The notes under the pieces were generated by a model. The model ran no database searches, was not told where the DNA came from, and saw nothing but the letters and a program-made list of their open reading frames with translations. The position numbers and the translations under genes are program-made. Positions 43,009 through 64,000 of a DNA stretch of 64,000 nucleotides are shown piece after piece (within the stretch, counting starts at the first letter, position 1; each line of letters starts with the position of its first letter). The stretch is from Streptomyces kanamyceticus. GTDB lineage: Bacteria > Actinomycetota > Actinomycetes > Streptomycetales > Streptomycetaceae. The stretch is taken from the NCBI RefSeq assembly GCF_008704495.1, contig NZ_CP023699.1:8680001-8744000 (forward strand), in the 5' to 3' direction.

Positions 43009-44151
43009 GTGACCTTACGGATAGCGATCACCGCTGAGCCGATCCCCTCGCACGTCTCCGCACTCGACTTCGTCATCGGCCCCGCCCTCGAACAGGGCCA
43101 CGACGTCGCGCTGCACGCCCCGCTGATGTTCCGCCGCGAAGCCCGGCGGCGGGGCGTGGAGTTCCACCGGGCGGGGACGGACTGGACCTGCGATCCGGCC
43201 GTACAGCGAAGAGCGAGTGAGATCTGGACGTTGGCGGGGAACGCGTCGTTCAACCGGTACGTCTTCGGTCGCCTCTGGCCGGAGCGGGCCGAGGCGAAGG
43301 CCCGTGATTTGATCACCGCGTGGACGCGGGCGCGCCCCGATCTGGTGATCGCCGAATGCAGCGATCTCGGCGCGCACCTCGCGGCGAAGGTCCTCGGCCT
43401 GCCCGTGGTCGCGGCGGACAACGGGCTAGGCCCGGTGCTCCTCGACCTCTGGGACACCGACGTCGCGCCCGCGCTGACCCTCCTCCACAAGCGGTACGGG
43501 CAGGACGACGCTCCCGTACTGCCCGCGCTGCTCACGCCCGCACCGCTCCCGTGGTTCTACGCGGACCCGCCGCCCGCCGCGCGGGCGGTCCGGCGCACCG
43601 TCGCGCCCGAGCGTCCTGACCCGTGGCTCCCTCCGTCCTCCGCCCGGCCCCTCGTCTACGCCAGTCTCGGCACGCTGACCACCGCGATGCCGGGGCTCCG
43701 CACCGTCGTGGGGGACCTGTACCGGGAGATCATGGCCGCGCTCGCCGCGGTCGGCTGCGACGCGATCGTCTCCGCGGGCGGCCTCGCCGACGAGCTGCGG
43801 AGCCCGGACCTCCGCATCCGTGTCGTACGCCACGTCCCGCAGCACGCGCTCCTGCGCCATGCCGACGTGTTCGTGACGCACGGCGGCCGGGCGTCCCTGC
43901 TCGACGCGGTGCAGGGCGCGACGCCCGTCCTCGGCCTTGGCCTCCTCGCCGACCAGCCCGCCAACACCGCCGCGTTCGCGCGTCTCGGTCTCGGCCGTGC
44001 GCTGCACCGCACGGCCACGCGCGAGGAGATCGCCGGGGCCGTCACGGCCGTCCTCGACGACTCCGCCCGCTCCGCCGCGGTGCGCGCGGCGGCGGCCGAG
44101 CTGTCCCGGCTGCCGCCGCTAGACGTCGCGGAGCTCCGGAACGGGTGGTGA
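43009..44151 (+). CDS. Glycosyltransferase, GT1 family (macrolide-type)
   Basis: 380 residues from GTG 43009, five bases after GGGAG. N-terminal acceptor half (RIAITAEPIPSHVSALDFVIGPALEQGHDVALHAP), C-terminal nucleotide-sugar half with VYASLGTLTTAM, VRHVPQHALLRHADVFVTHGGRASLLDAVQGATPVLGLGLLADQPANTAA, the GT1 donor signature. It transfers a sugar to a small aglycone or, as in macrolide glucosyltransferases, inactivates it. Codon 3 is TTA (43015-43017), so translation should depend on bldA. Its end overlaps the dctA end by 33 bases tail to tail. Confidence 0.9.
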   Translation: MTLRIAITAEPIPSHVSALDFVIGPALEQGHDVALHAPLMFRREARRRGVEFHRAGTDWTCDPAVQRRASEIWTLAGNASFNRYVFGRLWPERAEAKARDLITAWTRARPDLVIAECSDLGAHLAAKVLGLPVVAADNGLGPVLLDLWDTDVAPALTLLHKRYGQDDAPVLPALLTPAPLPWFYADPPPAARAVRRTVAPERPDPWLPPSSARPLVYASLGTLTTAMPGLRTVVGDLYREIMAALAAVGCDAIVSAGGLADELRSPDLRIRVVRHVPQHALLRHADVFVTHGGRASLLDAVQGATPVLGLGLLADQPANTAAFARLGLGRALHRTATREEIAGAVTAVLDDSARSAAVRAAAAELSRLPPLDVAELRNGW

Positions 44152-49651: not shown

Positions 49652-50165
49652 GGTCGATGGCGTACACGTGCAGGGGGTGGCCGGAGACCGGGTGGGCCGT
49701 CTCGCGTTCCAGGGTCATGCCGAGTTTGCGGATGACGTTGGCGGAGGCGTGGTTCCCGGGGCGGTCGATGCTGATGACGCGGTCGAGGCCGCGGTCCTGG
49801 AGGGCGAATTCAAGGGTGGCCTGCGCGGCCTCGGAGGCGTAGCCCTGGCCCCAGAACTGGGCGCCGAGCCGCCAGCTGATCGCCGCGTCGGGCAGCGCTT
49901 CGGGGAGGAACTCCGGAATGGAGAGGCCGGTGAAACCGGCGAGCTCGCCGGAGGCGAGGAGCTCGACGGCGAAGAGGCCGAAGCCCTCGTCGTCCCACTC
50001 CTCCTCCCAGCGCTCGATGGCCTCGGCCGTGGTGTCCGGGTCGTGGCTGGGGCCCTCTTCGCTCCAGCGCATGACCTGGGGGTCCGCGTTGATGTCCGTC
50101 ATGGGCGCGAGGTCGTCGTCGCGCCAGCGGCGCAGGAGGAGGCGGGGGGTGCGGATCTCGGTCAT
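49632..50165 (-). CDS. GNAT acetyltransferase, RimJ/RimL type
   Basis: 177 residues from ATG 50165. RTPRLLLRRWRDDDLAPMTDINADPQVMRW start, WRLGAQFWGQGYASEAAQATLEFAL acetyl-CoA loop and RPGNHASANVIRKLGMTLERE are typical of RimJ/RimL ribosomal-protein or antibiotic acetyltransferases. Target unknown. It overlaps the response-regulator end by 20 bases tail to tail and follows no promoter signal that I can recognise. Confidence 0.9.
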   Translation of the reverse strand: MTEIRTPRLLLRRWRDDDLAPMTDINADPQVMRWSEEGPSHDPDTTAEAIERWEEEWDDEGFGLFAVELLASGELAGFTGLSIPEFLPEALPDAAISWRLGAQFWGQGYASEAAQATLEFALQDRGLDRVISIDRPGNHASANVIRKLGMTLERETAHPVSGHPLHVYAIDLTEYEA

Positions 50166-50227
50166 GGCCCTCATCCTGCCGGGGCCGGGCGCGGTGGTGG
50201 TAATCGGCAGGCCGCCGCGCCCGCGGA

Positions 50228-50262
50228 GGGGCCGCCTCGGAGGAGGACCTCGAGGCGGCCCC
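50228..50262. terminator. Terminator hairpin after chitinase 3
   Basis: GGGGCCGCCTCG and CGAGGCGGCCCC form a perfect 12-bp stem with an 11-base loop, 47 bases after the chitinase 3 stop and just before the GNAT gene on the same strand. Confidence 0.75.
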
Positions 50263-50308
50263 GACCCGTGTGCCGTCCGCGCCGGGCGGGCGGCGAGCGC
50301 CGCGGTGG

Positions 50309-52624
50309 TTACCTCAGACCGCGATCCAGGGCGTTGAACAGGACGTTGTTCGAGGTGTCTCCCGACATCTCCCAGATCATGCCGCCGAGCAGACCCTTGG
50401 ACTTGATGTACTGGGTCTTCTTCTCGATGGACCAGGCGTCGTCGAAGGACCACCACTGGCCGTTCGCCCCGGTGTAGCCGTACGTCGAGATGGACTGCTC
50501 GTCGTGGTAGACGGTCAGGTTCGGGAAGGCGGCGACGAGGTTGTCGTAGCCGCGGGTGCCCGCCTCCTCCTGGAACTGGCCGGGCGCGGCGCCGTTGGCG
50601 CTCTGCCACTCGCCGTGCGCGCCGCCCTCGGCGACCTGCTGCCAGCCGCGCCCGTAGAACGGGAAGCCGATGGTCAGCTTGCGCGGCTTGATGCCCTGAT
50701 CCGTGTACACCTTCACCGCGTCGTCGATGCTGAAGTCGGTGGGGTACGGGCTCTGTGCGTCCTTGTACAGGTTGGCCTGGTGGCCGGTGCGGTTCGGTTC
50801 CCAGGAGTTGTCGCTGCCCGCGCCGTGGAAGTCGTAGCCCTGGACGTTGCCGAAGTCCAGGTGCTTGAAGACCTCCTTGATGTCCCAGCCGTCGTTGATC
50901 TTCTTGGCGTCGGCCGGGGTGAAGGCGGTGAGCAGCCGGTGGCTGCCGCCGAGCGCGTCGAGCTGCTTGCGGAACTCGGCGATCAGCGCGGTGTTGTTGG
51001 CCTTGTCGTCCGTGCTCCAGTGGTTGCCGGGGTGGCCGTCCGGTGATCCGGGCCACTCCCAGTCCAGGTCGAAGCCGTCGAAGATCCCGGCGGCGACGCC
51101 GTCACCGCCCGCTCCGTTGTACGCGGGCAGATTGCCCTTGATGTACATGTCGATGCAGGACTTGACGAACTTCTTCCGCGAGTCGTCCGTCTTGGCGACG
51201 TCGGAGAAGTACTTGGAGTACGTCCAGCCACCGAGCGAGACGACGACCTTGAGGTTCGGGTGCTTGGCCTTGAGCTTCTTCAGCTGGTTGAAGTTGCCGC
51301 GCAGCTTGCCCCAGCCGTCGTCGGCGACGCCGTCCACGGACTGCCCGGCGGGGAAGGCCCGGCCGTAGTCGGCCTCGGCGTCCCCGGCCCCGTCGCCCTG
51401 GTTGGGGTCCTGGGGGTTCTGCGTGGTGCCCTTGGTGACGCCGTTGAGGCAGGTGAGGTTCTTGGGGTCGATGTTGGCGAAGGCGTAGTTGATGACGTCG
51501 AGCTTGGCCGCGGCGCCGGACGTCTCCAGGTCCCGCACGAAGTACTGGCGGCCGTAGATGCCCCACTGCACGAAGTAGCCGACCTTGGCGTAGCCGTCCT
51601 GGCCGACGGGGTCCTTGGTGGTGACGGAGAGGGCGTTGCTCGCGGGCGACGCGTTGTCGGCGGCGTCCCGCGCCTTGACGGTGAAGGAGTAGTCCGTCGC
51701 GGGGGCGAGTCCGGTCACGGTGCTGGTGAGGGTGTCGGCCGGCAGGCTCTCCACGAGGGTCGTGCCGCGGTAGACGTCGTACGCGGCGACGCGCTGGTTG
51801 TCGGTGGCCGCGTCCCAGGCGAGCTTCACGGTGCTCGAAGTGACGTCGCTGGAGCGGAGGTTGCGGGGCGCGGTGGGCGGCACGGTGTCCGTCGCCGGGT
51901 CCACGGTGGTCGCGCTGACGGGGGCACTGGCCTCCCCGGTGTTGCCGCGCGAGTCCTTGGCCCGGACGCTGAACTGGTAGGCGGTCGCCGGTTCCAGGCC
52001 GCGCACCGTGGCCTGGGTGGTGGCGCTGGCCGCCACGACGGTGGTGCCGCGCAGCACCTCGTACGAGGCGACGGGGAAGTCGCCCTGCGCGGCCGCCGCC
52101 CACTTCAGGCTGACCGTGCGGGCGGTGGCGTCGGCGACGCTGAGCCCGGTGGGGGCCTTCGGGGGCACGGCCGCGGTGCCGTCGCACTTGTCGCCGTTGA
52201 TGAGGCAGCCGGTGGGGGGCTTGAGCTGGCCGCTGCCGCGGAAGGTGTAGCTGTAGGGCTCGGTGTCACGGCCCGCGGGGACGCGGGCGTTGTAGTACGC
52301 GGGCGTCACGACCACGTGCCTGCCCTTGACCTCGGCGGTGCCGTGGGTGTGGTCGCTGATGGTGACGCCTTCGGGCAGGTCGAACTCCAGGGACCAGGTG
52401 TCGACGGCGGTGTCGCCGCTGTTCTTCACGACGAACTTGCCGGTCCAGGACGAGCCGCTGCCCTCGCTGCTGAAGGTGGCGGTGAGTTTGGCGGCCGCGA
52501 TGGCGGGGGCCGCGAGTGAGGTGAGTCCGGCAAGCGCCAGGGCGAGCACGGCGAGAACGGCGACGATGCGTCGGGGCGCGGCTAACACCGCGCGGGGTCT
52601 GGCGGTGGATCTGAGTGGGGACAC
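50309..52624 (-). CDS. Secreted chitinase 3, CBM2 + 2 FnIII + GH18
   Basis: 771 residues from GTG 52624, five bases after AAGGAGAG. Signal peptide to about residue 44; carbohydrate-binding module of family 2 (45-150); two fibronectin-III domains (155-240, 250-338) as spacers; GH18 barrel 345-771 with DGFDLDWE, giving Asp516, Asp519, Asp521 and Glu523. The layout matches large Streptomyces exochitinases. Codon 14 is TTA (52583-52585), making translation bldA-dependent. The promoter has the same elements as chitinase 2. Confidence 0.94.
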   Translation of the reverse strand: MSPLRSTARPRAVLAAPRRIVAVLAVLALALAGLTSLAAPAIAAAKLTATFSSEGSGSSWTGKFVVKNSGDTAVDTWSLEFDLPEGVTISDHTHGTAEVKGRHVVVTPAYYNARVPAGRDTEPYSYTFRGSGQLKPPTGCLINGDKCDGTAAVPPKAPTGLSVADATARTVSLKWAAAAQGDFPVASYEVLRGTTVVAASATTQATVRGLEPATAYQFSVRAKDSRGNTGEASAPVSATTVDPATDTVPPTAPRNLRSSDVTSSTVKLAWDAATDNQRVAAYDVYRGTTLVESLPADTLTSTVTGLAPATDYSFTVKARDAADNASPASNALSVTTKDPVGQDGYAKVGYFVQWGIYGRQYFVRDLETSGAAAKLDVINYAFANIDPKNLTCLNGVTKGTTQNPQDPNQGDGAGDAEADYGRAFPAGQSVDGVADDGWGKLRGNFNQLKKLKAKHPNLKVVVSLGGWTYSKYFSDVAKTDDSRKKFVKSCIDMYIKGNLPAYNGAGGDGVAAGIFDGFDLDWEWPGSPDGHPGNHWSTDDKANNTALIAEFRKQLDALGGSHRLLTAFTPADAKKINDGWDIKEVFKHLDFGNVQGYDFHGAGSDNSWEPNRTGHQANLYKDAQSPYPTDFSIDDAVKVYTDQGIKPRKLTIGFPFYGRGWQQVAEGGAHGEWQSANGAAPGQFQEEAGTRGYDNLVAAFPNLTVYHDEQSISTYGYTGANGQWWSFDDAWSIEKKTQYIKSKGLLGGMIWEMSGDTSNNVLFNALDRGLR

Positions 52625-53125
52625 GGCTCTCCTTGGGGGAGGTGAGGCGTCCGTCCGTGCCGGGCCCCCCGAAGCCGGGGAACGGTCCGATGAGACAGGG
52701 ATCGGACGCGCTTCCTGCGGTACAGACCTCTTAGAGAACCACCCACCGTGGGCATGTCAACGAGGGCGGGAGAGCGCTGGACCGTACCAATTCGCGGCGC
52801 CGAACCCCCGGCCGGGCTTCCGTCCTCGTAAAGGACTGGACCAATTCGAGAAGATTTTGCTTCGCTTTGACTCGGCGTCAGGGCGATGGCGGCCCCAACT
52901 CGCCTGCGGTGACCGTGAGATGGGCGCGCCGCGGCCCGTGTTCCGGTGGTGTCCGATGAGGCGGCGCGGAGGGGTCGCCCGTGGGTCCGGGGCGGCGATC
53001 TTCGGCCGTTCACGCGCTGGCCTGCGGGTATTCATCGCCCGTCGGGATCATTTGTGTGCGGCGTCACAGAGAATCCTCAGATTACTCGGGCATGCTTCCC
53101 GGCAACCGAGCGAGGGGAGCGAAGG
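52625..53125. promoter_or_regulatory. Intergenic region with chitinase 3 promoter and protease promoter
   Basis: 501 bases, no gene. Minus strand: TTGACA (52760-52755), 17 bp, TCTCTA (52737-52732). Boxes TGGTACGGTCCA (52789-52778) and TGGTCCAGTCCT (52843-52832), the latter within CGAATTGGTCCAGTCCTT, one base different from chitinase 2. GGTCTGTACC recurs at 52728-52719, as in chitinase 1. Towards 53125 the sequence is plus-strand leader of the protease, with GGGGAG eight bases before its ATG; I see nothing else there. Confidence 0.7.
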
Positions 53126-53869
53126 ATGGCGATGCGCGTACGGCTGGGCCGCAGGCACCTGCGGGCACTGCTTGCCATGGGCGCCCTGTTCTCGTGTCTC
53201 GCGCTCGCGGACAGGAACGAGCTGCCCCATGCCGTCACGCCGACCGTGCGGTCCGGGCCGCCCGCGGAGGCGGCGCGGGTCGGCGCCCTCTTCGAGGGCG
53301 GCCTGGCAGGGCACCACTTCTGCACCGCGTCCGTGGTGCACAGCAAGGGCCGCGACCTCATCGTCACCGCGGGCCACTGCCTCAGCGACGGCAAGGGCAT
53401 CACCTTCGCCCCCGGCTACCACGACGGCAAGGCCCCCTACGGCCTGTGGACGATCGAGCGCGTCTACGCCGAGGACCACTGGACCCACGGCGGGGACGAG
53501 GACCACGACCTCGCCTTCGCCGTCCTCGAAACCCGGAAGGGACGGCACGTCGAGGACGTGACCGGGGCCAACACCCTGGACACCACGGCGGGCACCGAGC
53601 ACCGCGTCACGGTCACCGGCTACCCCGCCGACGAGGACGCCCCGCGCAGCTGCACCAGCACCGCGAACCGCTTCCGAGCGGGCCAGCAGCGCATCGGCTG
53701 CCCCGGCTTCAGCAGCGGCACCAGCGGCAGCCCGTGGGTCACCGCCGACGGCCATCTGATCGGTGTCCTCGGTGGCTACCACGACGGCGGCGACACCCCC
53801 GACGTGTCGTACAGCGTGATCCTCGACATGGAGGCGGCCGCCCTCTACGCCAAGGCGGCGCACGGCTGA
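53126..53869 (+). CDS. Secreted trypsin-like serine protease (S1 family)
   Basis: 247 residues from ATG 53126. N-terminal signal or anchor segment (residues 8-28). Catalytic triad His84 (TAGHC), Asp128 (EDHDLAF) and Ser202 (GTSGSPW) are present, with Cys pairs around them. Closest in style to the glutamyl-endopeptidase/V8-like group and the trypsin-like peptidases of Streptomyces. No prodomain typical of alpha-lytic proteases is seen. Substrate preference unknown. It is divergent from chitinase 3. Confidence 0.9.
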   Translation: MAMRVRLGRRHLRALLAMGALFSCLALADRNELPHAVTPTVRSGPPAEAARVGALFEGGLAGHHFCTASVVHSKGRDLIVTAGHCLSDGKGITFAPGYHDGKAPYGLWTIERVYAEDHWTHGGDEDHDLAFAVLETRKGRHVEDVTGANTLDTTAGTEHRVTVTGYPADEDAPRSCTSTANRFRAGQQRIGCPGFSSGTSGSPWVTADGHLIGVLGGYHDGGDTPDVSYSVILDMEAAALYAKAAHG

Positions 53870-53876
53870 CCCGCGC

Positions 53877-55109
53877 TCAGCTCCCCTCGGCGGCGAACAG
53901 CCGCCCGGTGAGCCTGTCCAGGAAGGACTCGTCCACCGGCGGTGCCGTGATGCCCCGCTCGGCCAGCATCGCGGTGACACGGGACGGAGCGAGGTCCGGA
54001 AGCCGGTGCGCGGGCGTGGCCACCACCAGGTAGGGAAGCATCTCGAACATCGCGTAGAGGGAGCGGGCGGGCCGCGTACGCCGGTTGGCCCTGAGGAGCG
54101 CGAGCCATTCGTCGACCGGCAGGACGGCGATGTCGTGTCCGCCCCGGCGCAGGGCACGCACCGCGTCGTTGAGCGGGAACGGGGTGGGGTCGTGGAGGTT
54201 GAACACCCGCGGCCGGTCGCGCCGGGGCGCGTCGGGGGCCAGCGCCGTGATCACGCGACCGGCGTGGTCGACGGCGCAGACCGGCACCGAGGGAAGCGTC
54301 GCGGGGGCGGCGCGGAGCTGGACGCACACCTTCATGAGGGTGCTGAGCGGTTCGCCGTCGCCGGACCTGCCGGTGGCGCTGTCGCCGAGGACGAACGGCG
54401 GGCGGTAGACGGCGGCCGGGAGTCCGCGGGCGGCGGCCTGGCGCACCAGCTGTTCGGCCACGTACTTGGAGGCCGGATATCCGAACGTGCCCGAGAAGCC
54501 CAGCGACGGCTCGCTGTCGTCGTGGACCGCGTCGACCGCGCAGGCGCGTGCGGAGATGAAGACCGCCATGGTCGAGACGTGGTGCACGGCCTTGAGCTGA
54601 CCGTACGCCGCGAACCGCAGGACTTCGACGGTTCCTCGCACGTTGGGGATCCGCGCCAGTTCATAGGGATCGTTCATGTTCACGGACGCACCGCAGTGGT
54701 AGACGGCGCCGATGGACTGGGCGAGTTCCTGGTAGCGGTCGGGGGCGAGTCCGAAGCGCGGCTGGGTGAAGTCACCCGCGATCGCGGCGACGCGGCCGGG
54801 GTCGGCGCCCACCTCGGCTCCCGTCCCGGCCCCCACCTCCGCGCGTCGGGCGGCGAGCCGTACGGCGGCGGCCCGGTCGTCATCGGCGCGGACCAGGCAC
54901 CGGATGGTCCCTGTCGTGGCGGCCCGCAGTGCGCGCAGCAGGTAGCCGCCCAGGTAGCCGGTCGCGCCGGTCAGCAGGACGTCCGCCGGTGGCGAAGACG
55001 CCGCCGTGGGGCTCGGGCTGATGTCGGCGGGCAGCCGGAGGTCGGACTCCGGGACGGCAAGAGTGGTGGAGGTGGTGGGGGTGGTGGGGGTGCTGGCGCT
55101 CCTGGTCAT
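53877..55109 (-). CDS. Free-standing thioester reductase (SDR, NAD-binding-4)
   Basis: 410 residues. A Ser/Thr/Pro-rich N-terminus contains DLRLPADI, the lead-in typical of thioester reductase domains of PKS/NRPS and carboxylic acid reductases. The extended SDR follows: GATGYLGGYLLRAL (48-61), HVSTMAVF with Thr180, YPASK with Tyr211 and Lys215, and RPPFVLGDSATG. It should reduce an acyl-thioester on the neighbouring carrier protein to an aldehyde, possibly on to an alcohol, releasing the product. It is the last gene of the operon, 15 bases behind the enoyl reductase. Confidence 0.88.
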   Translation of the reverse strand: MTRSASTPTTPTTSTTLAVPESDLRLPADISPSPTAASSPPADVLLTGATGYLGGYLLRALRAATTGTIRCLVRADDDRAAAVRLAARRAEVGAGTGAEVGADPGRVAAIAGDFTQPRFGLAPDRYQELAQSIGAVYHCGASVNMNDPYELARIPNVRGTVEVLRFAAYGQLKAVHHVSTMAVFISARACAVDAVHDDSEPSLGFSGTFGYPASKYVAEQLVRQAAARGLPAAVYRPPFVLGDSATGRSGDGEPLSTLMKVCVQLRAAPATLPSVPVCAVDHAGRVITALAPDAPRRDRPRVFNLHDPTPFPLNDAVRALRRGGHDIAVLPVDEWLALLRANRRTRPARSLYAMFEMLPYLVVATPAHRLPDLAPSRVTAMLAERGITAPPVDESFLDRLTGRLFAAEGS

Positions 55110-55124
55110 GGCGGGTGATTCCCC

Positions 55125-55919
55125 TCATGCTCGCTCGTTCAGCATCGAGGCGTACGCGGGGTGGGTGATGGACAGGCCGCCGTCGGCGTGGATGAGCTGG
55201 CCGGTGATCCAGCTCGCGGCGGGCGACGCGAGGAACAGCACCACCTGCGCGAACTCCTCGGGAGTACCGAGCCTGCGCAGCGGCGTGCCCGCCCTGGCCG
55301 CGGTCTCAAGGCGGTCGTTGCCCGGCATTCCGGCCCTGGCGTCCCCCTCGATCAGCCCGCCGGAGGCGGTGTTGACCCGGATCCCGGCAGGCCCGTACTC
55401 GACGGCCAGATAGCGGGTGAGCGCTTCGAGGGCGGCTTTGGAGGCGCCGGTCCCGGTGTATCCGGGCAGGGCGCAGCCCGCGCCGGAGGAGGACACGTTC
55501 ACGATCGCCGCGTGCGGTGCGCGCTCCAGCAGGGGCCGGGCCGCCTGCGCACACCACAGCGCCCCGGCCGCGTTGGTGGACAGCGCGCGGAGCCAGTCGC
55601 GTTCGCGGACGGCGTCCGGGGCGTTGAACCGGCCCGCGGCGGCGTTGTTGACCAGGACGTGCAGACGGCCGTGCCGCTCGGCCACGTCGTCGAACAGCGC
55701 GGTGACGGCGCCCCGATCGGCGACGTTGCCGGGCAGGAGCCGTGCCAGGCCGCCGCTGTCGAGCACGTCCTGCACGGTCTGCCGCGCCGTGTCGGGGTCG
55801 CGGAAGCAGTTGACGACGACGTACGCGCCCTCGCGGGCGAACGCCTGGGTGATGTGCCTGCCGATGCCCCGGCCGCCGCCGGTGACCAGCACGACCTTGT
55901 CCACGAAGCGTCCGGTCAT
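55125..55919 (-). CDS. FabL-like enoyl-ACP reductase (SDR, Tyr-x6-Lys)
   Basis: 264 residues. Rossmann GGGRGIGRHITQAF. The active site is Tyr154-x6-Lys161 in GYTGTGASKAALEALTRYLAVEYGP, the spacing of enoyl-ACP reductases FabI/FabL and not the Tyr-x3-Lys of ketoreductases; the sequence around it is very like Bacillus FabL. Ser at NVSSSGAG and Asn116 are also seen. It should reduce trans-2-enoyl-ACP with NADPH. FabG-like annotations of such genes miss this spacing. It lies six bases after the downstream ketosynthase end. Confidence 0.87.
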   Translation of the reverse strand: MTGRFVDKVVLVTGGGRGIGRHITQAFAREGAYVVVNCFRDPDTARQTVQDVLDSGGLARLLPGNVADRGAVTALFDDVAERHGRLHVLVNNAAAGRFNAPDAVRERDWLRALSTNAAGALWCAQAARPLLERAPHAAIVNVSSSGAGCALPGYTGTGASKAALEALTRYLAVEYGPAGIRVNTASGGLIEGDARAGMPGNDRLETAARAGTPLRRLGTPEEFAQVVLFLASPAASWITGQLIHADGGLSITHPAYASMLNERA

Positions 55920-55925
55920 GGCGCG

Positions 55926-57197
55926 TCACGTCCCTTCGGGTGGGCTGAGGATGATGCAGGAGTTCTGGCCGCCGAGGCCGAAGGAGTTGGACAGCACCGG
56001 CCGGGCGCCGGTCTCCCGCGGCTCACCGCTGACCACGTCAAGCCCCTGGCAGTCGGCGGCGAGTTCGGCGTGCCCCGCGGTCGGCGGGACGAGGCCGAGG
56101 TGGGTGGTGAGCGCGGCCACGGCCACCTCGGCGGCACCGGAGGCCCCCATCAGGTGTCCGAACACCCCCTTGGAACTGGTCACGGGCGGGGGAGCACCGT
56201 CGAAGGCGGCGAGCAGCGCGCGGGTCTCCATCGCGTCACCGAGCGGGGTGGACGGGCCGTGGGCGTTGACCGATCCGATGTCGGCGGGGGTGAGCGCCGC
56301 ATCGTCCAGCGCGTTGTTCATGCAGGCGGTGACCCACTTGCCGGTGGGGTTCGGCGCGGTGAGGTGGTAACTGTCCGTGCTCTGCGCGCTCCCGGCGATC
56401 TCGGCGTAGACGCGGGCGCCTCTGGCCAGCGCGTGGTCGAAGGGCTCCAGGGCCAGGAACGCCGAACCCTCGCCCATGACGTAGCCGTCGCGGCCGACGG
56501 AGAAGGGGCGCGATGCGGTGGCGACGTCGTCGTTGCGGGTCGAGAGCGCGTCGGACTGGCAGAAGGCGGCCATCATCAGCCGGGTGAGTCCCGCGGAGTC
56601 GGTGGCCCCGGCGAGCACGAGATCGCACCGGCCGTCGCGGACGAGGCCGACGCCGGTACTGATCGCGTCGATCCCGGAGGCGCACGCGGTGGACACGGTG
56701 GCCGATGGCCCGTGCCAGCCCAGCTTCATGCCGATGAACGCGGCGGCGGAGTTGGGGATCAGCAGCGTGGTGGTCAGCGGGCTCACCTCACCGGGGCCCC
56801 GGTCGCGGCAGGCGAGCGCCTGCCGGGTGTAGGAGTCCGCTCCGCCGAAGGAGGAACCGCAGGCGATGCCGCTCCGTACGGGATCGCGGGCCGGTGTCCC
56901 GGCATCGGCCAGGGCGTCCAGGGCGGCGCACAGGGCGTACTGGGCGAACCGGTCGGCGCGGCGACGCTCCTTGCCGGACAGATACCGGTCCGGGCGGAAG
57001 CCGCTGACCTCACAGGCGAACCGGGTGGGCAGACCCGCCGGGTCGAACCGCGTGATGGGCCCGGCCGTCGCCCTGCCCGCCAGGACGGTGGCGGTGAACT
57101 CGGCCAGGTCACAGCCCGCCGGGGTGGTGACACCGATCCCGGTGATGGCGACCCTTCGACGGCCGCGGGAGTCGAGGAGCTGCCGGGCGCGCGTCAT
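55926..57197 (-). CDS. Beta-ketoacyl-ACP synthase B (FabF type, active triad)
   Basis: 423 residues. Active-site Cys172 in VSTACASG, His313 in NAHGPST, Lys343 (SSKG) and His348 (GHLMGASG) are all present. It can condense and should not be a pure chain-length factor. Compared with ketosynthase A it has the fuller N-terminal domain. It overlaps the stop of ketosynthase A by four bases. Two active ketosynthases in one operon suggest either two elongation specificities or a heterodimer in which both halves keep their Cys. Confidence 0.9.
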   Translation of the reverse strand: MTRARQLLDSRGRRRVAITGIGVTTPAGCDLAEFTATVLAGRATAGPITRFDPAGLPTRFACEVSGFRPDRYLSGKERRRADRFAQYALCAALDALADAGTPARDPVRSGIACGSSFGGADSYTRQALACRDRGPGEVSPLTTTLLIPNSAAAFIGMKLGWHGPSATVSTACASGIDAISTGVGLVRDGRCDLVLAGATDSAGLTRLMMAAFCQSDALSTRNDDVATASRPFSVGRDGYVMGEGSAFLALEPFDHALARGARVYAEIAGSAQSTDSYHLTAPNPTGKWVTACMNNALDDAALTPADIGSVNAHGPSTPLGDAMETRALLAAFDGAPPPVTSSKGVFGHLMGASGAAEVAVAALTTHLGLVPPTAGHAELAADCQGLDVVSGEPRETGARPVLSNSFGLGGQNSCIILSPPEGT

Positions 57198-58450
57198 GGC
57201 CGCTCCGCCGCGCCGGGCGAGGGGACGAAGACCAACGCGGCGTTGTGCCCGCCGAATCCGAAGGAGTTGGACAGCAGCGCCCCGGCCCCGAGCGGCCGGG
57301 GCGGTCCTGTCACCAGGTCGATTTCGAGATCGCTTTCGACCTCGGCGGTGTTCGCGGTGGGAGGGGCCACCGCATGGGCGAGGGTGAGCAGGGTGACGAT
57401 CGCCTCGGCCGCGCCCGAGGCGGCGATCATGTGGCCGGTCACCCCTTTGTTGGCGGTGACCGGGACGGTGCGGGGGCCGAAGACCGCCGCGATCGCCCGG
57501 GCCTCCGCCGCGTCGCCGACGCGCGTCGAGGTGGCGTGGGCGTTGACGTGCGCCACGTCCGTCGCGTCGATCCCCGCGTCGGCCAGAGCGGACCGCATGC
57601 AGCGCGCCGCTCCCTCACCGCCGGGGCGGGGACTGGTCAGGTGGTGGGCGTCGCAGGTGACGCCGTATCCGCTGATGCGGCCGTACTCCCGGGCGCCGCG
57701 GCGAGCCGCGTGGGCAGGATGCTCCAGGACCACGAACGCCGCGCCCTCCGACGCGACGGTCCCGTCCCGGTCGACGTCGAACGGCCGGGAGGCGGAGCGG
57801 AATTGGCGGTGGCGCTCCGACAGGGCCCCGCTGGCCCGGATTCCGGTCAGAGACCTCTCGGTGAGCAGCTCGGCGCCGCCCGCGACGACGACGTCCGCGA
57901 GACCGTCATGGATGAGGCGTGTCCCTTCACCGATGGCGACGGCGCCGGTGGCGCACGCGGCGCTGACCGCCGTCGAGGGGCCGGTGAGGCCCGCGGCCAG
58001 GCTGATGGCGGCGGGCAGGGCGTTGTGCATGGCCATCGGTACGAAGAAGGTGCCCCTCTCGGGCGACTCCAGCGTGGTGGAGGCGCCGAACGCGGTGCCC
58101 GCGACGACCGCGTACCTGTGGGAATCGCCGGGGGCGGCGGTCCTGGCGGGGACGTCGTCCAGGGCGGCGTCGGCCAACGCGTCGAGGGCCGTCCGCAATC
58201 CGAGCCGGGTCACGGGGTCGAGCCGCCGTCCCAGTTTGCCGAGGCGTCGCCAGGACCGGTCGCCGTCGCCGGGCAGCCGACAGGCGAATTCGGTGACCGC
58301 CCCGTCGGTATCGGTGGGCCCGAGGGTGCTGGCCAGGGTCCCCTGGGCGGCGATCAGGGCATCCCACAGCTGGTCGGTCCCCGCACCGGCCGGGGTGGTC
58401 GCGGCCATGCCCGTCACCGCCACCGACCTCCGGTACGGATACCTGTCCAT
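57194..58450 (-). CDS. Beta-ketoacyl-ACP synthase A (FabF type, active triad)
   Basis: 418 residues. Cys166 in VSAACATG, His305 in NAHATST, Lys335 and His340 in ANKGVTGHMIAASG. The His and Cys are complete, unlike chain-length factors. It starts within the stop codon of the carrier protein gene (TGATG, one base shared) and ends four bases into ketosynthase B. The loop after VVVAGTAFGAS differs from housekeeping FabF, hinting at special chain or starter choice. Confidence 0.9.
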   Translation of the reverse strand: MDRYPYRRSVAVTGMAATTPAGAGTDQLWDALIAAQGTLASTLGPTDTDGAVTEFACRLPGDGDRSWRRLGKLGRRLDPVTRLGLRTALDALADAALDDVPARTAAPGDSHRYAVVAGTAFGASTTLESPERGTFFVPMAMHNALPAAISLAAGLTGPSTAVSAACATGAVAIGEGTRLIHDGLADVVVAGGAELLTERSLTGIRASGALSERHRQFRSASRPFDVDRDGTVASEGAAFVVLEHPAHAARRGAREYGRISGYGVTCDAHHLTSPRPGGEGAARCMRSALADAGIDATDVAHVNAHATSTRVGDAAEARAIAAVFGPRTVPVTANKGVTGHMIAASGAAEAIVTLLTLAHAVAPPTANTAEVESDLEIDLVTGPPRPLGAGALLSNSFGFGGHNAALVFVPSPGAAERP

Positions 58451-58716
58451 CAGGCGGGCCCGGGCGGCGAGTTCACGAGGCCGATGAGGTCCGCCACCGT
58501 GACGGCCCGGGACTTCAGATCGGCCTTGTCCACGAGGAATCCGCGTCCGGCGAGTCCGGCCGCGATCTCGGACAGATCGAGGGAATCCGCGTCCAGCTCG
58601 TCGACGAGCCGTGCGTCCGGCGTCACTTCGTCCTCGGGAACCGAGAGGACCCGTGACAGCACTTCGGTGACGGCGATGGCGATCGGGGTGTTGGGGTTGG
58701 GCACCGCACTGCTCAT
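58450..58716 (-). CDS. Acyl carrier protein
   Basis: 88 residues; AAGGAG seven bases before ATG 58716. The phosphopantetheine Ser45 is in ELDADSLDL. Acidic helix II follows, as in ACPs of dissociated systems. It is set between the ketoreductase and ketosynthase A genes and should carry the growing chain for the whole operon. A 7-bp hairpin (58770-58792) over the ketoreductase stop lies just upstream and may set its expression apart from that of the upstream genes. Confidence 0.93.
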   Translation of the reverse strand: MSSAVPNPNTPIAIAVTEVLSRVLSVPEDEVTPDARLVDELDADSLDLSEIAAGLAGRGFLVDKADLKSRAVTVADLIGLVNSPPGPA

Positions 58717-58769
58717 GCTCGTACTCCTTTTCCGCTCGTGCTCCTTGCTGATGTGATAGGTCGTCAGAT

Positions 58770-58792
58770 ATGGGCCCGTATCAATGGCCCAT
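58770..58792 (-). other. Hairpin over the ketoreductase stop codon
   Basis: ATGGGCC (58770-58776) and GGCCCAT (58786-58792) pair over 7 bp around the TGA stop of the ketoreductase gene (58781-58783). Its place, just before the carrier protein gene, suggests mRNA processing or partial termination. Confidence 0.45.
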
Positions 58793-59524
58793 CGACATGC
58801 CTCCGTCCACGGGCAGCACGGCGCCGGTGATGAAGGCGGCCTCCTCCGAACAGAGGAAGGCGACCGCGGCGGCCACTTCGGCGACCGTCCCGAACCTCTT
58901 GCACGGGATCATGTCGGCCAGTTGGCGACGGCGTTTGCCGCTCAGGTGGGCGATCATCCCGGTGTCGACCGGGCCCGGCATGACCAGGTTGCACGTCGTG
59001 GTCGGGGCCAGCTCCCGGGCCAGTGACCGGGTCAGACCGATCAACCCCGCTTTGGCCGCCGCGTAGTTGGCCTGCCCCATCGACCCGAGGACGCCCGCGG
59101 CGGATCCGATGTTGACGATCCGGCCCCACCGGGCGGCGGCCATGCCCGCGGCGGCGCGTGAACCGCACAGGAAGGGAGCGGTGAGGTTCACGTCGAGCAC
59201 GTCCCGCCACTGGTCCGCCGTCATCTCGCCGACCAGCGCGTCGGCGAGCAGGCCCGCGCAGTTCACCAGGATCTGCACGTCCGATCCGAAGTGGGCGCGG
59301 ACGTCGCCGAACAGGGCCTCGACGCCGGTGGGTTCGGTGATGTCGGCGCGCAGCGCCAGGCAGCCGGTCGCGGCGGCCACCTGGTCGGCGGCGGCCTGGT
59401 TCCTGACGTAGGCGATGGCCACCTGGTGGCCCGCACCGGCCAGCGCGGTGGCGACGTCGGCGCCGATGCCCCGCGAGCCGCCGGTGACCAGCGCGACCCT
59501 GCCGGGGGAGCGTCGGCTCGTCAT
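58781..59524 (-). CDS. 3-oxoacyl-ACP reductase (FabG type)
   Basis: 247 residues. TGGSRGIGADVATAL, NCAG, Ser141 (NIGSAAG), Tyr154 and Lys158 (NYAAAK, Tyr-x3-Lys) make a classical ketoreductase. It reduces the beta-keto group after condensation. Its start overlaps the acyltransferase stop by four bases (ATGA). The difference in active-site spacing from the operon's other SDR at 55125 shows that the two do different steps. Confidence 0.93.
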   Translation of the reverse strand: MTSRRSPGRVALVTGGSRGIGADVATALAGAGHQVAIAYVRNQAAADQVAAATGCLALRADITEPTGVEALFGDVRAHFGSDVQILVNCAGLLADALVGEMTADQWRDVLDVNLTAPFLCGSRAAAGMAAARWGRIVNIGSAAGVLGSMGQANYAAAKAGLIGLTRSLARELAPTTTCNLVMPGPVDTGMIAHLSGKRRRQLADMIPCKRFGTVAEVAAAVAFLCSEEAAFITGAVLPVDGGMSMGH

Positions 59525-60465
59525 GAGGGGAGAAGTGCCGCGATGGCCTCACACGCCTCGAACGAGGCGGCGTTGAACAGCGGCATCCGCCCCAGGGTGC
59601 GTTTGGCCAGGCCGGTGAGCGTGCGCCCGTGCCCCGCCTCGATGATCGCGTCGGCCCCGGCCCGGGCCAGCGCGTGCTGGGTGTCGCACCAGCGCACCGG
59701 GGTGATGAGGTCGGCGGCGACGAGCTCGCGCCAGGTGTTGGGGCCGGTGTCACCGGCCCGGTGGGTGCGGCCGTTGTGCACGACGGCCGCTCGGGACCGG
59801 GTGAAGGGGATGTCGCGCAGCCCCGCCAGGAACTCCCTGGAGGCCTGACACATCAGCGGAGTGTGGAAGGGCCCGGCGACGTCGAGCGGAATGATGTCGC
59901 CCGCCCCCAGCTCACCGGCCGCGCTCTCGGCGGCACGCAGCCCCGCGTACGTCCCCGCGATGACCGTCTGCGACGGTGCGTTGTCGTTGGCGACCCAGCA
60001 ACCGGAGATGTCCGCACACGCCTTGTGCGCGCCCTCCGCGCCGAGCAGCAGCGCGGTCATGCCGCCCGTGCCGTCGCAGGCGGCCTCGGTGACGCGGGCG
60101 CGCAGCGCCACGACCTCGATCGTCTCGCGGACGGTGAGCACACCGGCCGCGTGCAGGGCGGAGACGAATCCCAGTGAGTGGCCCGCGAGCAGGGGCCGAG
60201 GGCCCCCTTCGCCGCAGAGAGTGGTGGACAGCGCCTCCCAGGAAAGCACCGAGCAGAGCACGACGGACAGCTGGGCGTCCGTGGTCGATGCCGGAGCCGC
60301 GTCGGGGTCGAGGAGCATCGGCTCCAGCGCGCGACGCAGGATCTCTTCGGCCTCCCCGACGATCGACCAGCCCGGACGGCCCCGCCAGGCTTCTCCCATG
60401 GCGGGGCCCTGGGAACCCTGGCCGGGGAACACCACCGCTGGAGATTTCCACGATGTCATGGGCAT
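59521..60465 (-). CDS. Malonyl-CoA:ACP acyltransferase (FabD type)
   Basis: 314 residues; ATG 60465 (or 60459). PGQGSQGPAMG, nucleophile Ser97 in AGHSLGF, Arg122 in ALRAR (carboxylate binding), His201 in VAGPFHTPLM. The Arg is consistent with malonyl or methylmalonyl as extender. GHSLGF instead of GHSLGE is a small departure from housekeeping FabD. It gives the operon its own extender loading and so independence from primary metabolism. Confidence 0.9.
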   Translation of the reverse strand: MPMTSWKSPAVVFPGQGSQGPAMGEAWRGRPGWSIVGEAEEILRRALEPMLLDPDAAPASTTDAQLSVVLCSVLSWEALSTTLCGEGGPRPLLAGHSLGFVSALHAAGVLTVRETIEVVALRARVTEAACDGTGGMTALLLGAEGAHKACADISGCWVANDNAPSQTVIAGTYAGLRAAESAAGELGAGDIIPLDVAGPFHTPLMCQASREFLAGLRDIPFTRSRAAVVHNGRTHRAGDTGPNTWRELVAADLITPVRWCDTQHALARAGADAIIEAGHGRTLTGLAKRTLGRMPLFNAASFEACEAIAALLPS

Positions 60466-60716
60466 ATCAATGCAGTCCTCACGTGGCCTCGACGGTCAAG
60501 GGGCGGGCGGCGGCGCGGCGATGGCGGGGCGGCGATGGCGGGCCCGTGGACCGGGTGGCTCGATCGGTTCGGGGCGGAAGGCTCCTGCCCCTTCACATGC
60601 TCTGACCGGCCCGTGGTCTCCGGGAGGCGTGAACCGCCGGGGCGTGAGGCAGGTGACGATCTACGTAGTGCGCGGGGGCGCAGGGGAGTCACGCGTGGCG
60701 AGCGCCGCCGCGGGGG
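60466..60716. other. 251-base gap between cupin and acyltransferase genes
   Basis: I see no ORF with coding bias here. Near 60520 there is a short GGCGGCGATGGCGGG tandem repeat. The gap is large for one operon, so the acyltransferase gene may have its own promoter, but no -35/-10 pair is convincing. Confidence 0.4.
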
Positions 60717-61214
60717 TTACTTGGCTGCGTCGAGCGCGGCCTGCCAGGCGGGGCTGTTCACGTAGTGGTTGTCGTACTGCTCGGAGGAGTTCTTGATCTC
60801 CTCGAAGCTCGCCTCGCCGCGCATGACGCGGCCCAGCAGACGCAGGTAGTCGAAGCGGGGCATGCCCGGGCTGAAGACGAACAGCACGTCGGCCTCCCGG
60901 TCGGGGGCCGCGGCGAAGGCGTGCGGGGTGTGCGGCGGCACCAGCAGGAAGTCGCCCTTCTCCAGGACCTTCACCTCCTCGCCGACCAGCACCTGGAGCG
61001 CGCCGTCCACCACGAAGAACAGCTCGGACGCCTTGGTGTGGAAGTGGGCCGGGGCGCCGACCGCGCCCTTGGCGAAGGTCGAGCGGTAGCTGGTGAGCGC
61101 GCTGCCGTCGGTGCCGTAGTCGGCCAGCAGGGTCATCACGCTGCTGGGGTCCGCAGTGGTCTCGGCGGTGGCGGCGCGGGTGAGGACGGCCTGCGGTGCG
61201 GTCTGCGCGTTCAT
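60717..61214 (-). CDS. Cupin-domain protein, first gene of the biosynthetic unit
   Basis: 165 residues from ATG 61214 after AGGAAA. Single cupin with the metal set His57-x-His59, Glu64 and His98 (AHFHTKASELFFVVDG, PPHTPHAF). The C-terminal 45 residues form a helix (RGEASFEEIKNSSEQYDNHYV). Related proteins are dioxygenases, isomerases or of unknown role. In this set it may be a tailoring enzyme, for instance acting on the aldehyde, or may replace the missing dehydratase; neither is shown. It could also be separately transcribed. Confidence 0.75.
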   Translation of the reverse strand: MNAQTAPQAVLTRAATAETTADPSSVMTLLADYGTDGSALTSYRSTFAKGAVGAPAHFHTKASELFFVVDGALQVLVGEEVKVLEKGDFLLVPPHTPHAFAAAPDREADVLFVFSPGMPRFDYLRLLGRVMRGEASFEEIKNSSEQYDNHYVNSPAWQAALDAAK

Positions 61215-61725
61215 GTTGTTTCCTGCCTCTGAGCTGCGGCTTCGGGTTTTCCCGGCGCCTTGTGAGAACAACTCTATGGCGCCGATAGACCTCACACGGG
61301 GTGCATTTTCGGGTACGAATCATGGGTCAATTCTGCGCCGCACCCTTCTTGAATCCACGGATGAACTGCTGTCGCGTAAATGAATCGAAGGCCATCGAGC
61401 CCATTCGCCTTTACTTGCTCTTGACGTGGATCCGGTGGGGCGATAGCGTCACCGACGTCCACGCCAATGGTCCAGACCATTTGGGCGTGGTGGCTCCGTC
61501 CCCTGCTTTAAGGGGGGAGGGGACGGGGCCACAGTTCGCACCGGACGCGTGATCAGTTGGTCCGCCTCTGGCGTCGTGCGGGGCGGTTTCGCTGTGCCAT
61601 TGGCCCACCCATGAGTGCCTGGCTTGAGCCGCGTGGCTTCTTGATGGTCTGATGGGTCTGTCGATGGCGCCCCGGACTCCGTGGCGCCTTCTTTGTGTCC
61701 GGGTTGCCGAGAGGGGCGGGAAGCA
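61215..61725. promoter_or_regulatory. Divergent control region with DasR-type box
   Basis: 511 bases, clearly poorer in GC than the surroundings up to about 61480. Plus strand: TTGACG (61421-61426), 17 bp, TAGCGT (61444-61449); then AATGGTCCAGACCATT (61466-61481), a 16-bp near-perfect palindrome matching the DasR consensus TGGTCTAGACCA with one change in each... core position. Next a hairpin CCGTCCCCT/AGGGGACGG (61496-61504, 61518-61526). About 200 bases of untranslated leader follow before the exporter start. GGCGCC repeats near 61668-61687 could form a further hairpin. Confidence 0.6.
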
Positions 61726-63234
61726 GTGCTGAAGAGGGTGTTCGTGGCTCCGGATCCGGGGCGGCTGCGGCTGCGCAGCGGTGCCCGGGCAGTCGTCGGC
61801 ATTTCGTCGGCCGTGGCTGTGTGCGGCCTGGTGGGGCACTCCCTCAGCGCGGCCATCGTCGGAGGACTCGCGGCGCTGCTCGCCCTCTTCACCGTGCTCG
61901 ACCCGACCGTGCGCGGCCAGGCGGTGACGACCGCGCTGCTGCCGGTGGTCGGTCTTCCCGTCCTCGCCGTGGCCGCGGCGCTGCACGACTACCCCTTGGC
62001 CAGGGACCTGACGTTCCTCGCCGTGGTCGGCGCCGGGGTCTACGCGCGGCGCTGGGGTCCCCGTGGTCATTCCCTCGGTGTGTTCGCCTTCATGACGTAC
62101 TTCGCCGCCCAGTTCCTGCACACCGTGCCCGACCAGCTGCCCGAGCTGGCCGTGGCCGTACTGCTCTCGCTCTGCGTCTCGTCGACCGTGCGGTTCGGCC
62201 TGTGGTGCTACGAGCGCGGCCGCCCCGTGGCCGCCGCGCCCGCACTGCCGCAGGGACGCGGTCTCGGCCGGGTGACCACGCGGCAGGCCGTGCAGGCCGC
62301 GGCGGGGGCGGCGTTCGCGCTCGGGGTGGGGCAGGTGCTCTCCGACCAGCGGTGGTACTGGGCGGTGGGCGCCACGTGGTGGGTGTTCGTGAACACCGTG
62401 TCGCGCGGCGAGACGCTGGTGCGGGGCTTCCGCCGGGTCCTCGGCACGGTCCTCGGCATCGTGGTGGGGTTCGCCGTCGCGCTTCCCGTGCAGGGAGCGG
62501 CGGTGCCGACCGCCCTGGTCGTGGCGGTGAGCGTCTTCGGGATCTTCTACACCGCGGCCGTCTCGTACAGCTGGATGATGTTCTTCGTGACCGCGATGGC
62601 CTCCATGCTGTACGGGCTGCTCGGCGTCCTGGACGCGTCGCTCCTTGGGCTGCGCGTCGCGGAGACCGCGGTCGGCGCGCTCGGCGCGGGGCTCGCGGTC
62701 CTGCTCGTCCTGCCGGTCACCACACATGCGGTCACCGACGAGTGGATCCGCCGTGCGCTGCGGTGCGTGCACGCCTGCACGACCGAGGCCGCCGCCCGCC
62801 TCGCCGGGACTCCGGGTGCGGACCCCGAGCCCCACGTCGCCGAACTGGAGTCGCTGCTCGCCCGGGTGCGCCTCGCGGTCTCACCGCTGGTGCATCCGCT
62901 GCACCGGGGCCGGGAGCGCAAGGCGCGGGCCCACGGGGTGCTCGCGCTTCTCGACGACTGCGCGCGGGAAGTGCGTTCCCTCGCCGAGATCGCGGCGGAC
63001 CCGGACGCCTCGCACGACGCCAGGCTCGCGGCCGCCTGCTGGCGGGTGGAGGCGGCGGTGGAAGCGCTGACGACTCCGCGTGGCGCCCGGCAGGCACGCG
63101 AGCCCCAGGCAGCGGTCCCGCATGCCGTGGGCCACCCGGCCCTCGCGCACCTGAACGGCCTGGAGCGGGCGCTGGAAGCGATGGCCGGGCACACGAAACC
63201 GGAGGAAGCGGCGTATCTGGGCGGTGCCCGGTAG
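61726..63234 (+). CDS. FUSC-type membrane protein (aromatic acid exporter family)
   Basis: 502 residues from GTG 61726; GTG or ATG further upstream would add 15 residues without a binding site. Two sets of hydrophobic helices (residues 20-150 and 185-335) around a soluble link, then a helical cytoplasmic C-terminal domain (residues 340-502). This is the FUSC/ArAE layout. RWYWAVGATWWVFVNTVSRGETLVRGFRRVLGTVLG is the signature of the second set. It probably exports small acids or drugs. Its position opposite the cryptic biosynthetic set suggests export of that product or self-protection. Confidence 0.85.
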   Translation: MLKRVFVAPDPGRLRLRSGARAVVGISSAVAVCGLVGHSLSAAIVGGLAALLALFTVLDPTVRGQAVTTALLPVVGLPVLAVAAALHDYPLARDLTFLAVVGAGVYARRWGPRGHSLGVFAFMTYFAAQFLHTVPDQLPELAVAVLLSLCVSSTVRFGLWCYERGRPVAAAPALPQGRGLGRVTTRQAVQAAAGAAFALGVGQVLSDQRWYWAVGATWWVFVNTVSRGETLVRGFRRVLGTVLGIVVGFAVALPVQGAAVPTALVVAVSVFGIFYTAAVSYSWMMFFVTAMASMLYGLLGVLDASLLGLRVAETAVGALGAGLAVLLVLPVTTHAVTDEWIRRALRCVHACTTEAAARLAGTPGADPEPHVAELESLLARVRLAVSPLVHPLHRGRERKARAHGVLALLDDCAREVRSLAEIAADPDASHDARLAAACWRVEAAVEALTTPRGARQAREPQAAVPHAVGHPALAHLNGLERALEAMAGHTKPEEAAYLGGAR

Positions 63235-63291
63235 CTTTGCCGTCCGGCTGACCCCGCCCGCCACGCACAGGGCCCCGCCACCGGCGCCGAC

Positions 63292-63315
63292 TTGGTCTAG
63301 ACCGGCTGCTAGCGT
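63292..63315 (+). promoter_or_regulatory. DasR-type box in the lactonase promoter
   Basis: TTGGTCTAGACCG (63292-63304) contains the perfect palindrome GGTCTAGACC and agrees with the DasR site consensus. TAGCGT (63310-63315), a likely -10, follows six bases later and is identical to the -10 near 61444. The box would lie in the spacer of the promoter, where a repressor blocks polymerase. Confidence 0.65.
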
Positions 63316-63368
63316 CGGCCGCACGAGTGGCGCCACGGACGTGCCGCTCAGGGCGAGAGGGGACAGCA

Positions 63369-64000
63369 GTGGCCGTCGGCAGGCACGCCGCACACGCGTA
63401 CATCGGATCCTTCACCGCGGCCGGAGGGCGCGGCGTCACCACCGCGGCCCGCGACGCGGACACCGGCGCGCTGACCGTCCTGAGCAGCACGGACGAGGTC
63501 GCCGACCCGTCGTACCTCGTGCTCTCGGCGGCGGGGGACACCTTGTACGCGGTCAGTGAGACCGCCGACGGCGCGGTCGCCGCCTACCGGCTCGACGGGT
63601 CGGAGCCGCGACTCACCGGAGCGCCCGTCCCCGTCGGCTCGGCGCCCACCCACCTCACGCTGTACGCGGGCCACCTGCTCGCCGCCAACTACGGCTCGGG
63701 CAGCGTCGCCGCCGTCCCCCTGCGCGCCGACGGAACCCTCGGCGCCGCCCCGTCCAGCGTCCTGGTGCACACCGGCTCGGGACCGCACCCCCAGCGCCAG
63801 CGGGCGCCGCACGCCCACCAGGTGCGCGTGGACCCGAGCGGCCGCTGGGCGCTCAGCGTCGACCTCGGCACCGACTCGGTGCGGGTCTGCGCGCTCGACG
63901 CGGAGAAGGGGGAACTCACCCTGCACCGCGAGGTCGCGCTGCGCCCCGGGTCGGGACCGCGGCACCTCGCCTTCCACCCGGACGGCGACCGCGCGTACGT
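63369..64000 (+). CDS. Lactonase family protein (6-phosphogluconolactonase/cycloisomerase 2 type), partial
   Basis: GTG 63369, six bases after AGGGGA; 210 codons seen, running out of the window (family length is about 340-370). Seven-bladed beta-propeller pattern: HAYIGSFTAAGGRGVTTAARDADTGALTVLSS, DPSYLVLSAAGDTLYAVSE, APHAHQVRVDPSGRWALSVDLGTDSVRV. Family members hydrolyse 6-phosphogluconolactone or related lactones (YbhE type). The DasR-type box in its promoter suggests induction by amino-sugar metabolism. Confidence 0.88.
   Translation, partial: MAVGRHAAHAYIGSFTAAGGRGVTTAARDADTGALTVLSSTDEVADPSYLVLSAAGDTLYAVSETADGAVAAYRLDGSEPRLTGAPVPVGSAPTHLTLYAGHLLAANYGSGSVAAVPLRADGTLGAAPSSVLVHTGSGPHPQRQRAPHAHQVRVDPSGRWALSVDLGTDSVRVCALDAEKGELTLHREVALRPGSGPRHLAFHPDGDRAY

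Follow-up and report, generated by a model that had tools for sequence, protein, structure and literature searches.

Several described biosynthetic systems share components with the seven-gene locus of Streptomyces kanamyceticus analyzed here. The cispentacin (amc) and coronafacic acid (CFA) type II polyketide synthase (PKS)-like systems carry a discrete acyl carrier protein (ACP) and ketosynthase (KS) and recruit FabI from fatty acid synthase (FAS); in the cispentacin pathway this enzyme works on the dedicated ACP (available sections of PMC10698177). In the available part of PMC3547906, the zeamine genes zmn13-zmn14 encode a predicted ketoreductase (KR) and a 412-aa thioester reductase (TR) beside FAS/PKS genes. 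In Streptomyces coelicolor, sco1265-sco1273 are counted among the PKS genes (as excerpted from PMC7324645), and SCO1271 is described as a FabH homologue in an unknown cluster (as excerpted from PMC11801535).

The locus lies in a window of 64,000 bp (G000:C1:8680001-8744000), the whole stretch analyzed, from a host genome that is one 10.13-Mb contig. From the open reading frame (ORF) list and family profiles, seven co-oriented, packed genes were identified on the minus strand at 53877..60465, in the order acyltransferase (AT)-KR-ACP-KS1-KS2-enoyl reductase (ER)-TR. These genes appear to form a rare, conserved, FAS-derived cassette with predicted reductive release. An earlier note on this DNA had described a dissociated FAS/PKS-like gene set with a reductive-release enzyme; its eight minus-strand ORFs and their families were all recovered (listed below by window position), and the TR scored above the TIGR01746 cut-off.

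59521..60465, minus strand: AT, FabD/MdcH-like malonyl-type acyltransferase, 314 aa, first cassette gene (PF00698, 60.2 bits; cut-off, 32.7)
58781..59524, minus strand: KR, FabG-like ketoreductase, 247 aa, 4-bp overlap with AT (PRK12826.1-2 FabG subfamily, 230.9 bits; above cut-off of 222)
58450..58716, minus strand: ACP, 88 aa (PF00550, 32.0 bits; above cut-off of 20.8)
57194..58450, minus strand: KS1, KAS II-type ketosynthase, 418 aa (TIGR03150 fabF, 347 bits; below equivalog cut-off of 494)
55926..57197, minus strand: KS2, KAS II-type ketosynthase, 423 aa, start overlapping the KS1 stop by 4 bp (TIGR03150 fabF, 413.5 bits; below 494)
55125..55919, minus strand: ER, FabL-like enoyl reductase of the short-chain dehydrogenase/reductase (SDR) type, 264 aa (FabL is the best NCBIfam model, 218.2 bits; below cut-off of 328)
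53877..55109, minus strand: TR, stand-alone thioester reductase, 410 aa, last gene (TIGR01746, 245.9 bits, above 213.35; PF07993, 181.8 bits)
60717..61214, minus strand: cupin, a neighbor judged to lie outside the cassette (251-bp gap to AT)

In transcription order, the junctions measure 251 bp (cupin to AT), −4 bp (AT to KR), 64 bp (KR to ACP), −1 bp (ACP to KS1), −4 bp (KS1 to KS2), 6 bp (KS2 to ER), and 15 bp (ER to TR). None of the eight genes contains a TTA codon. The AT also scores 176 bits with MdcH and 163 bits with FabD, both under the equivalog cut-offs.

Compared with the described systems, the cassette differs in several respects. The cispentacin pathway, in the available sections of PMC10698177, includes AmcG (CYF), the ligase AmcH, AmcE, an aminotransferase, and a thioesterase, none of which was matched in the cassette (AmcG was not searched by sequence); release in the cassette would instead be reductive. 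Membership of the cispentacin/CFA type was rejected, as the AmcF model gave 222 bits for KS1 and 188 bits for KS2, below 325, and no ligase-family match was found among the eight proteins. The zeamine cluster relies on a large polyunsaturated fatty acid-type multidomain synthase and a nonribosomal peptide synthetase rather than a discrete KS and ACP (available part of PMC3547906). Nor does the set correspond to an aromatic type II PKS with a KS/chain-length factor (CLF) pair, since both KSs keep the active Cys and neither groups with the host KS/CLF rows in the tree described below. It is not a complete type II FAS either: it has no FabH or dehydratase match, and MaoC genes and a FabH-ACP-FabF stretch lie elsewhere in the genome.

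Catalytic residues and origin of the enzymes

The active-site residues that the earlier note reported as visible were located in AT, KR, ACP, KS1, KS2, ER, and TR. The AT carries GQGS, GHSLG, and GPFH; the KR, Y154-x3-K158 (YAAAK); and the ACP, a phosphopantetheine serine at S45 within D44-S45-L46. Both KS triads are intact (C166/H305/H340 in KS1 and C172/H313/H348 in KS2) and no CLF is present, again as first described. In KS2 the His motif reads HGPST and the gate loop GLGG. Among the 120 KS1-relative proteins listed, HGPST occurred in none (the motif could not be located in 4) and GLGG in none (110 had GFGG, and the loop was not located in 10); this comparison set consists of relatives of KS1, and KS2's own relatives may carry the same changes. 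The TR fits a stand-alone thioester reductase, passing the TIGR01746 cut-off with a Rossmann motif (TGATGYLG), Y211-x3-K215, and no PP-binding match; its best PDB sequence matches were 8v1x (named Type I polyketide synthase) and MxaA.

The ER carries Y154-x6-K161, and its YTGTGASK aligns with YTTVGVSK of FabL (3oic); the tyrosine expected for a Y-x3-K is absent. FabL 3oic was also its best PDB match (152.7 bits, versus 134.4 for the next). Judged as a FabL, the protein has the Y-x6-K arrangement but, at 218.2 bits, does not reach the 328 bits of the NCBIfam equivalog. It is thus likely a FabL-like enoyl reductase, in agreement with the type proposed in the earlier note, and from the Y-x6-K motif together with the best model and structure matches an enoyl substrate is likely.

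The earlier note had pointed out that an enoyl reductase is encoded without a dehydratase. The gap in the set was borne out, as none of the eight proteins matched a dehydratase family in Pfam or NCBIfam profiles, and no FabA/Z match was found in the host genome by a search whose control was positive in 9 of 14 genomes. The paradox was not, because the host genome has seven MaoC matches, two of them adjacent at C1:4206298-4207096, and the cispentacin pathway offers a precedent in FabI for borrowing an enzyme.

In a 40-row KS tree, KS1 and KS2 both fell within one actinobacterial FabF group (19 rows; support, 100/99). The host FabF, the KSs of TR-ACP loci, and the host rows labeled KS and CLF from gene pairs and motifs fell elsewhere. 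The KS2 end branch is long (0.9). KS1 and KS2 may still have a sister origin through duplication within the cassette: the free tree separates the two, but forcing them together was not rejected (p-AU, 0.10).

A similar operon, in a metagenome-assembled genome of an uncultured actinobacterium (L001), has the order AT-FabH-KR-ACP-KS-carboxyltransferase. The AT is 42% identical to the L001 AT over 295 aa, compared with 30% over 300 aa to an AT-like stretch next to the FAS genes of the host (L132, whose FabH, ACP, and FabF were assigned from gene order, length, and sequence starts); no other host match to the AT was found at 1e-20. For KS1 the values were 54% over 310 aa (47% over 416 aa) to L001 and 37% over 315 aa to L132, and for KS2, 46% and 38%, respectively. 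The AT and both KSs thus appear closer to an L001-type FabD-FabH-FabG-ACP-FabF operon than to the host FAS, and it is the AT and the KS tree that would carry the argument for an origin outside the host FAS; the KR does not discriminate. The order AT-KR-ACP-KS is common to both operons. The cassette lacks the FabH and carboxyltransferase genes, adds a second KS, the FabL-like ER, and the TR, and resides in a host that retains its own FAS locus elsewhere (L132).

Conservation and rarity of the cassette

Protein database searches identified TR orthologues (P0002-P0007) at 63 to 71% identity and nine KS1 orthologues (P0121-P0129) at 65 to 89%. In six other assemblies, among them those of Streptomyces sp. 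NPDC090025, NPDC021093, and NPDC041068, TR and KS1 orthologues were found on longest contigs of the same size (140000, 193814, 5857, 818902, 89742, and 42393 bp), and in four of the six pairs the strain names agree too. The 5,857-bp contig is too short for the two genes to lie far apart, and the pairing across six assemblies indicates that the set is conserved.

The cassette is also rare, with an orthologue-level match only in the window's own genome among the genome samples searched. These samples include that genome and overlap one another, so the counts are not additive, and four candidates were scored per genome. A single TR query matched 1 of 392 genomes at an E value of ≤1e-60 (its own), and KS1 matched 2 of 392 at ≤1e-90, the second being G045 at 48%, not an orthologue; in another sample KS1 matched 1 of 372 at the same threshold. 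An alignment query for TR reached 81 of 391 genomes at 1e-60, the best after self having an E value of 5e-75 versus 1e-215 for self. One further search, run without a positive control, matched 0 of 392. A contig scan with KS1, which may omit records near the window's own genome, gave at least 80 loci, the best of those listed being at 49% (L001). The closest TR and cupin protein matches are mostly from Streptomyces where named. The combination AT-KR-ACP-KS-KS-ER-TR was present in none of the related loci inspected, and the gene set was not described in the titles or abstract openings of the papers that searches of the open-licence literature listed.

The cupin gene, which the earlier note had counted as an eighth member of the operon, is probably a neighbor and not part of the cassette. 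Its relatives (120 listed of 407; 73 to 92% identical; Streptomyces and Kitasatospora where named) share no longest-contig size and no strain name with the TR or KS1 orthologues; the 120 are represented by the longest contig of each cluster only, so a cupin may lie near some other cassette. At ≤1e-50 a cupin match was obtained in 4 of 26 genomes, counting its own, and one of these matches was at 55%; the cupin neighbors in G004 and G015 were unrelated to window genes except for one 33% match. A role for the cupin as cassette member or hidden dehydratase was considered, and membership was rejected from its relatives and the G004 and G015 neighborhoods. The unit is therefore taken as the seven packed genes.

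Proposed pathway and alternative explanations

With moderate confidence, the genes can be read as a FAS-derived cassette dedicated to chain elongation, whose product would leave by reductive offloading and for which initiation and dehydration would be borrowed. The AT would load malonate onto the cassette's own ACP, a starter would come from host FabH/FAS or from malonyl-ACP decarboxylation, and KS1 and KS2 would elongate the chain; because their genes overlap, the two may act as a heterodimer or as a sequential early/late pair. The KR would yield 3-hydroxyacyl-ACP, a host MaoC-type dehydratase enoyl-ACP, and the FabL-like ER would saturate the latter in some or all rounds. The free TR, with NAD(P)H, would then convert the acyl-ACP thioester to an aldehyde or alcohol. 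Since a FAS-like set ends in a reductase, a fatty aldehyde or alcohol is a plausible product, possibly lightly functionalized, and either final or handed to an unlinked enzyme.

If correct, the locus would encode a small FAS-like module equipped with an ACP, two elongating KSs, reductases, and a reductive release step of its own, and would be a FAS-type operon reused alongside an intact host FAS. It would offer a model for the division of labor between two active ketosynthases without a CLF and a possible means of obtaining fatty aldehydes or alcohols from malonyl-CoA. A bolder version, which we regard as doubtful, holds that KS1 and KS2, the latter with a remodeled gate (GLGG) and His motif (HGPST), form an obligate heterodimer in which both are live, and that together they set starter and chain length without a CLF; together with the TR, this would define a new class of type II-derived aldehydes, perhaps signals in rare streptomycetes.

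Gene content, motifs, and spacing speak for the elongation cassette, but several observations weigh against it. None of the equivalog cut-offs for FabL, FabF, FabD, and MdcH was reached. The link to L001 is also looser than the FAS comparison implies: KS1 is 47% identical to L001 when aligned over its full length, other host KSs reach 44% to KS1 and likewise up to 44% to KS2, and the KR is 48% identical to a host paralogue versus 49% to L001. No KASIII, starter ligase, regulator, or transporter lies within the seven-gene set. Conservation was judged from the TR and KS1 orthologues only, and 3 of the 9 KS1 orthologues (P0121, P0125, and P0128) have no TR match on a same-size contig. Of little weight are the failure to find a sigma-70-like promoter and the four terminator-like matches (1.8 ± 1.6 in shuffles), one of which is on the coding strand near the KS1 end.

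A short, partly reducing polyketide is an unlikely alternative that nonetheless deserves some weight. One or two condensations would be followed by ketoreduction only, the substrate of the FabL-like SDR would be the aldehyde after its release or a different carbonyl, and the TR would give a hydroxy-aldehyde or cyclized product, leaving a dehydratase unneeded. Its absence from the set fits this scheme, as do the ER score below the FabL equivalog cut-off and the altered His motif and gate loop of KS2, which could change chain handling; the ER, however, has the FabL Y-x6-K in place of the usual Y-x3-K tyrosine, which points to enoyl reduction, and MaoC-family genes are present in the host. That reductive release feeds amination, with an unlinked aminotransferase forming an alkylamine or cyclic imine, seems improbable: free TRs do stand beside class III aminotransferases at two other loci (L120 and L122), but scans of the eight proteins and of 20 other ORFs in the window matched no aminotransferase family.

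A decaying or silent cluster with no present product would agree with the long end branch of KS2 and is quite improbable, as each of the seven genes keeps an open frame and its motifs and TR/KS1 orthologues persist elsewhere at 63 to 89% identity. Replacement of KS and ER is a route to inhibitor tolerance, and the divergence of the AT and KSs from the host FAS could suggest a spare KS, AT, and ER serving as back-up against an inhibitor of fatty acid synthesis. For tolerance, however, a dedicated ACP, KR, and TR would be superfluous, and the TR accompanies KS1 in six assemblies, making this explanation highly improbable. Overall, the reading in the earlier note holds in part.

Other thioester reductase loci and neighboring genes

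The earlier note regarded a free TR with type II genes as unusual, a claim weakened by the loci of other TRs. Among 19 of the 20 best non-self TR matches, 6 have an ACP beside the TR: within their short flanks, 5 carry TR-ACP-KASIII and 1 TR-ACP-KS; flanks were checked for relatives of those partner proteins only. In L118 the TR is followed by ACP, KASIII, two E1-family genes, and KS, and in L125 ACP, E1, ACP, and KS matches lie near it. These Streptomyces loci (L118:9664-16911 and L125:9403-16893) combine TR, ACP, KASIII (tested in L118 only), and a pair of E1-family genes, with a KS in the vicinity, the TRs being 91 to 95% identical between genomes. A pathway that begins with an E1-made starter and ends in reductive release would be a separate orphan, and we take this type of locus to be the SCO1265-SCO1273 orphan cluster of S. 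coelicolor. Like the cassette, it has a stand-alone TR and a discrete ACP and KS; unlike the cassette, it includes genes for KASIII and the E1 family, and each 20-kb stretch shows a single KS match and none to AT, KR, or ER. The L118 and cassette TRs are 36% identical over 362 aa.

A minimal TR-ACP-KS arrangement (L136:8086-10663) was observed on the plasmid of the Ips typographus isolate Streptomyces sp. ITFR-16. The free TR, ACP, and KS are annotated as adjacent, resembling the cassette, but the 22-kb stretch has no AT, KR, or ER match, and identities are 36% for TR and 37 to 41% for KS. At L120:7998-10548 and L122:9676-12177, a free TR adjoins a class III aminotransferase; together the two may convert an aldehyde to an amine.

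Other candidates were examined and rejected. The G045 KS (L117; 48%) has no AT, ACP, ER, or TR match nearby, only an SDR at 31 to 32%, and no Pfam KS-system partner, and it groups with other KSs. The Nonomuraea gerenzanensis KS (50%) has, by eye, KASIII, a hydrolase, a ligase, and an epimerase-like reductase as neighbors, the last accounting for a short TR match; this is presumably an ole hydrocarbon cluster. The TR-like match on pCLA1 of Streptomyces clavuligerus sits inside a 1101-aa ORF. KSs on the Streptomyces NBC_00441 and NBC_01351 plasmids belong to clusters that contain MaoC-family, ligase, and KASIII genes, and the stretch inspected has no TR. As observed there (L138:4806-10960 and L140:4863-11283), KS and MaoC-family genes accompany AMP-ligase, carrier protein, ectoine synthase-like, and tryptophan-branch genes. 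The available portion of a thiotetronate paper (PMC5518548) had no bearing on the cassette.

An Rfam scan of window positions 50000 to 64000 gave no match. Past the TR lies a convergent gene for a trypsin-like protease (52946-53869), and beyond the cupin, one for a FUSC-family protein (61681-63234). An EryCIII-like glycosyltransferase is encoded at 43009-44151; no genes typical of an antibiotic cluster were seen among the neighbors scanned around it.

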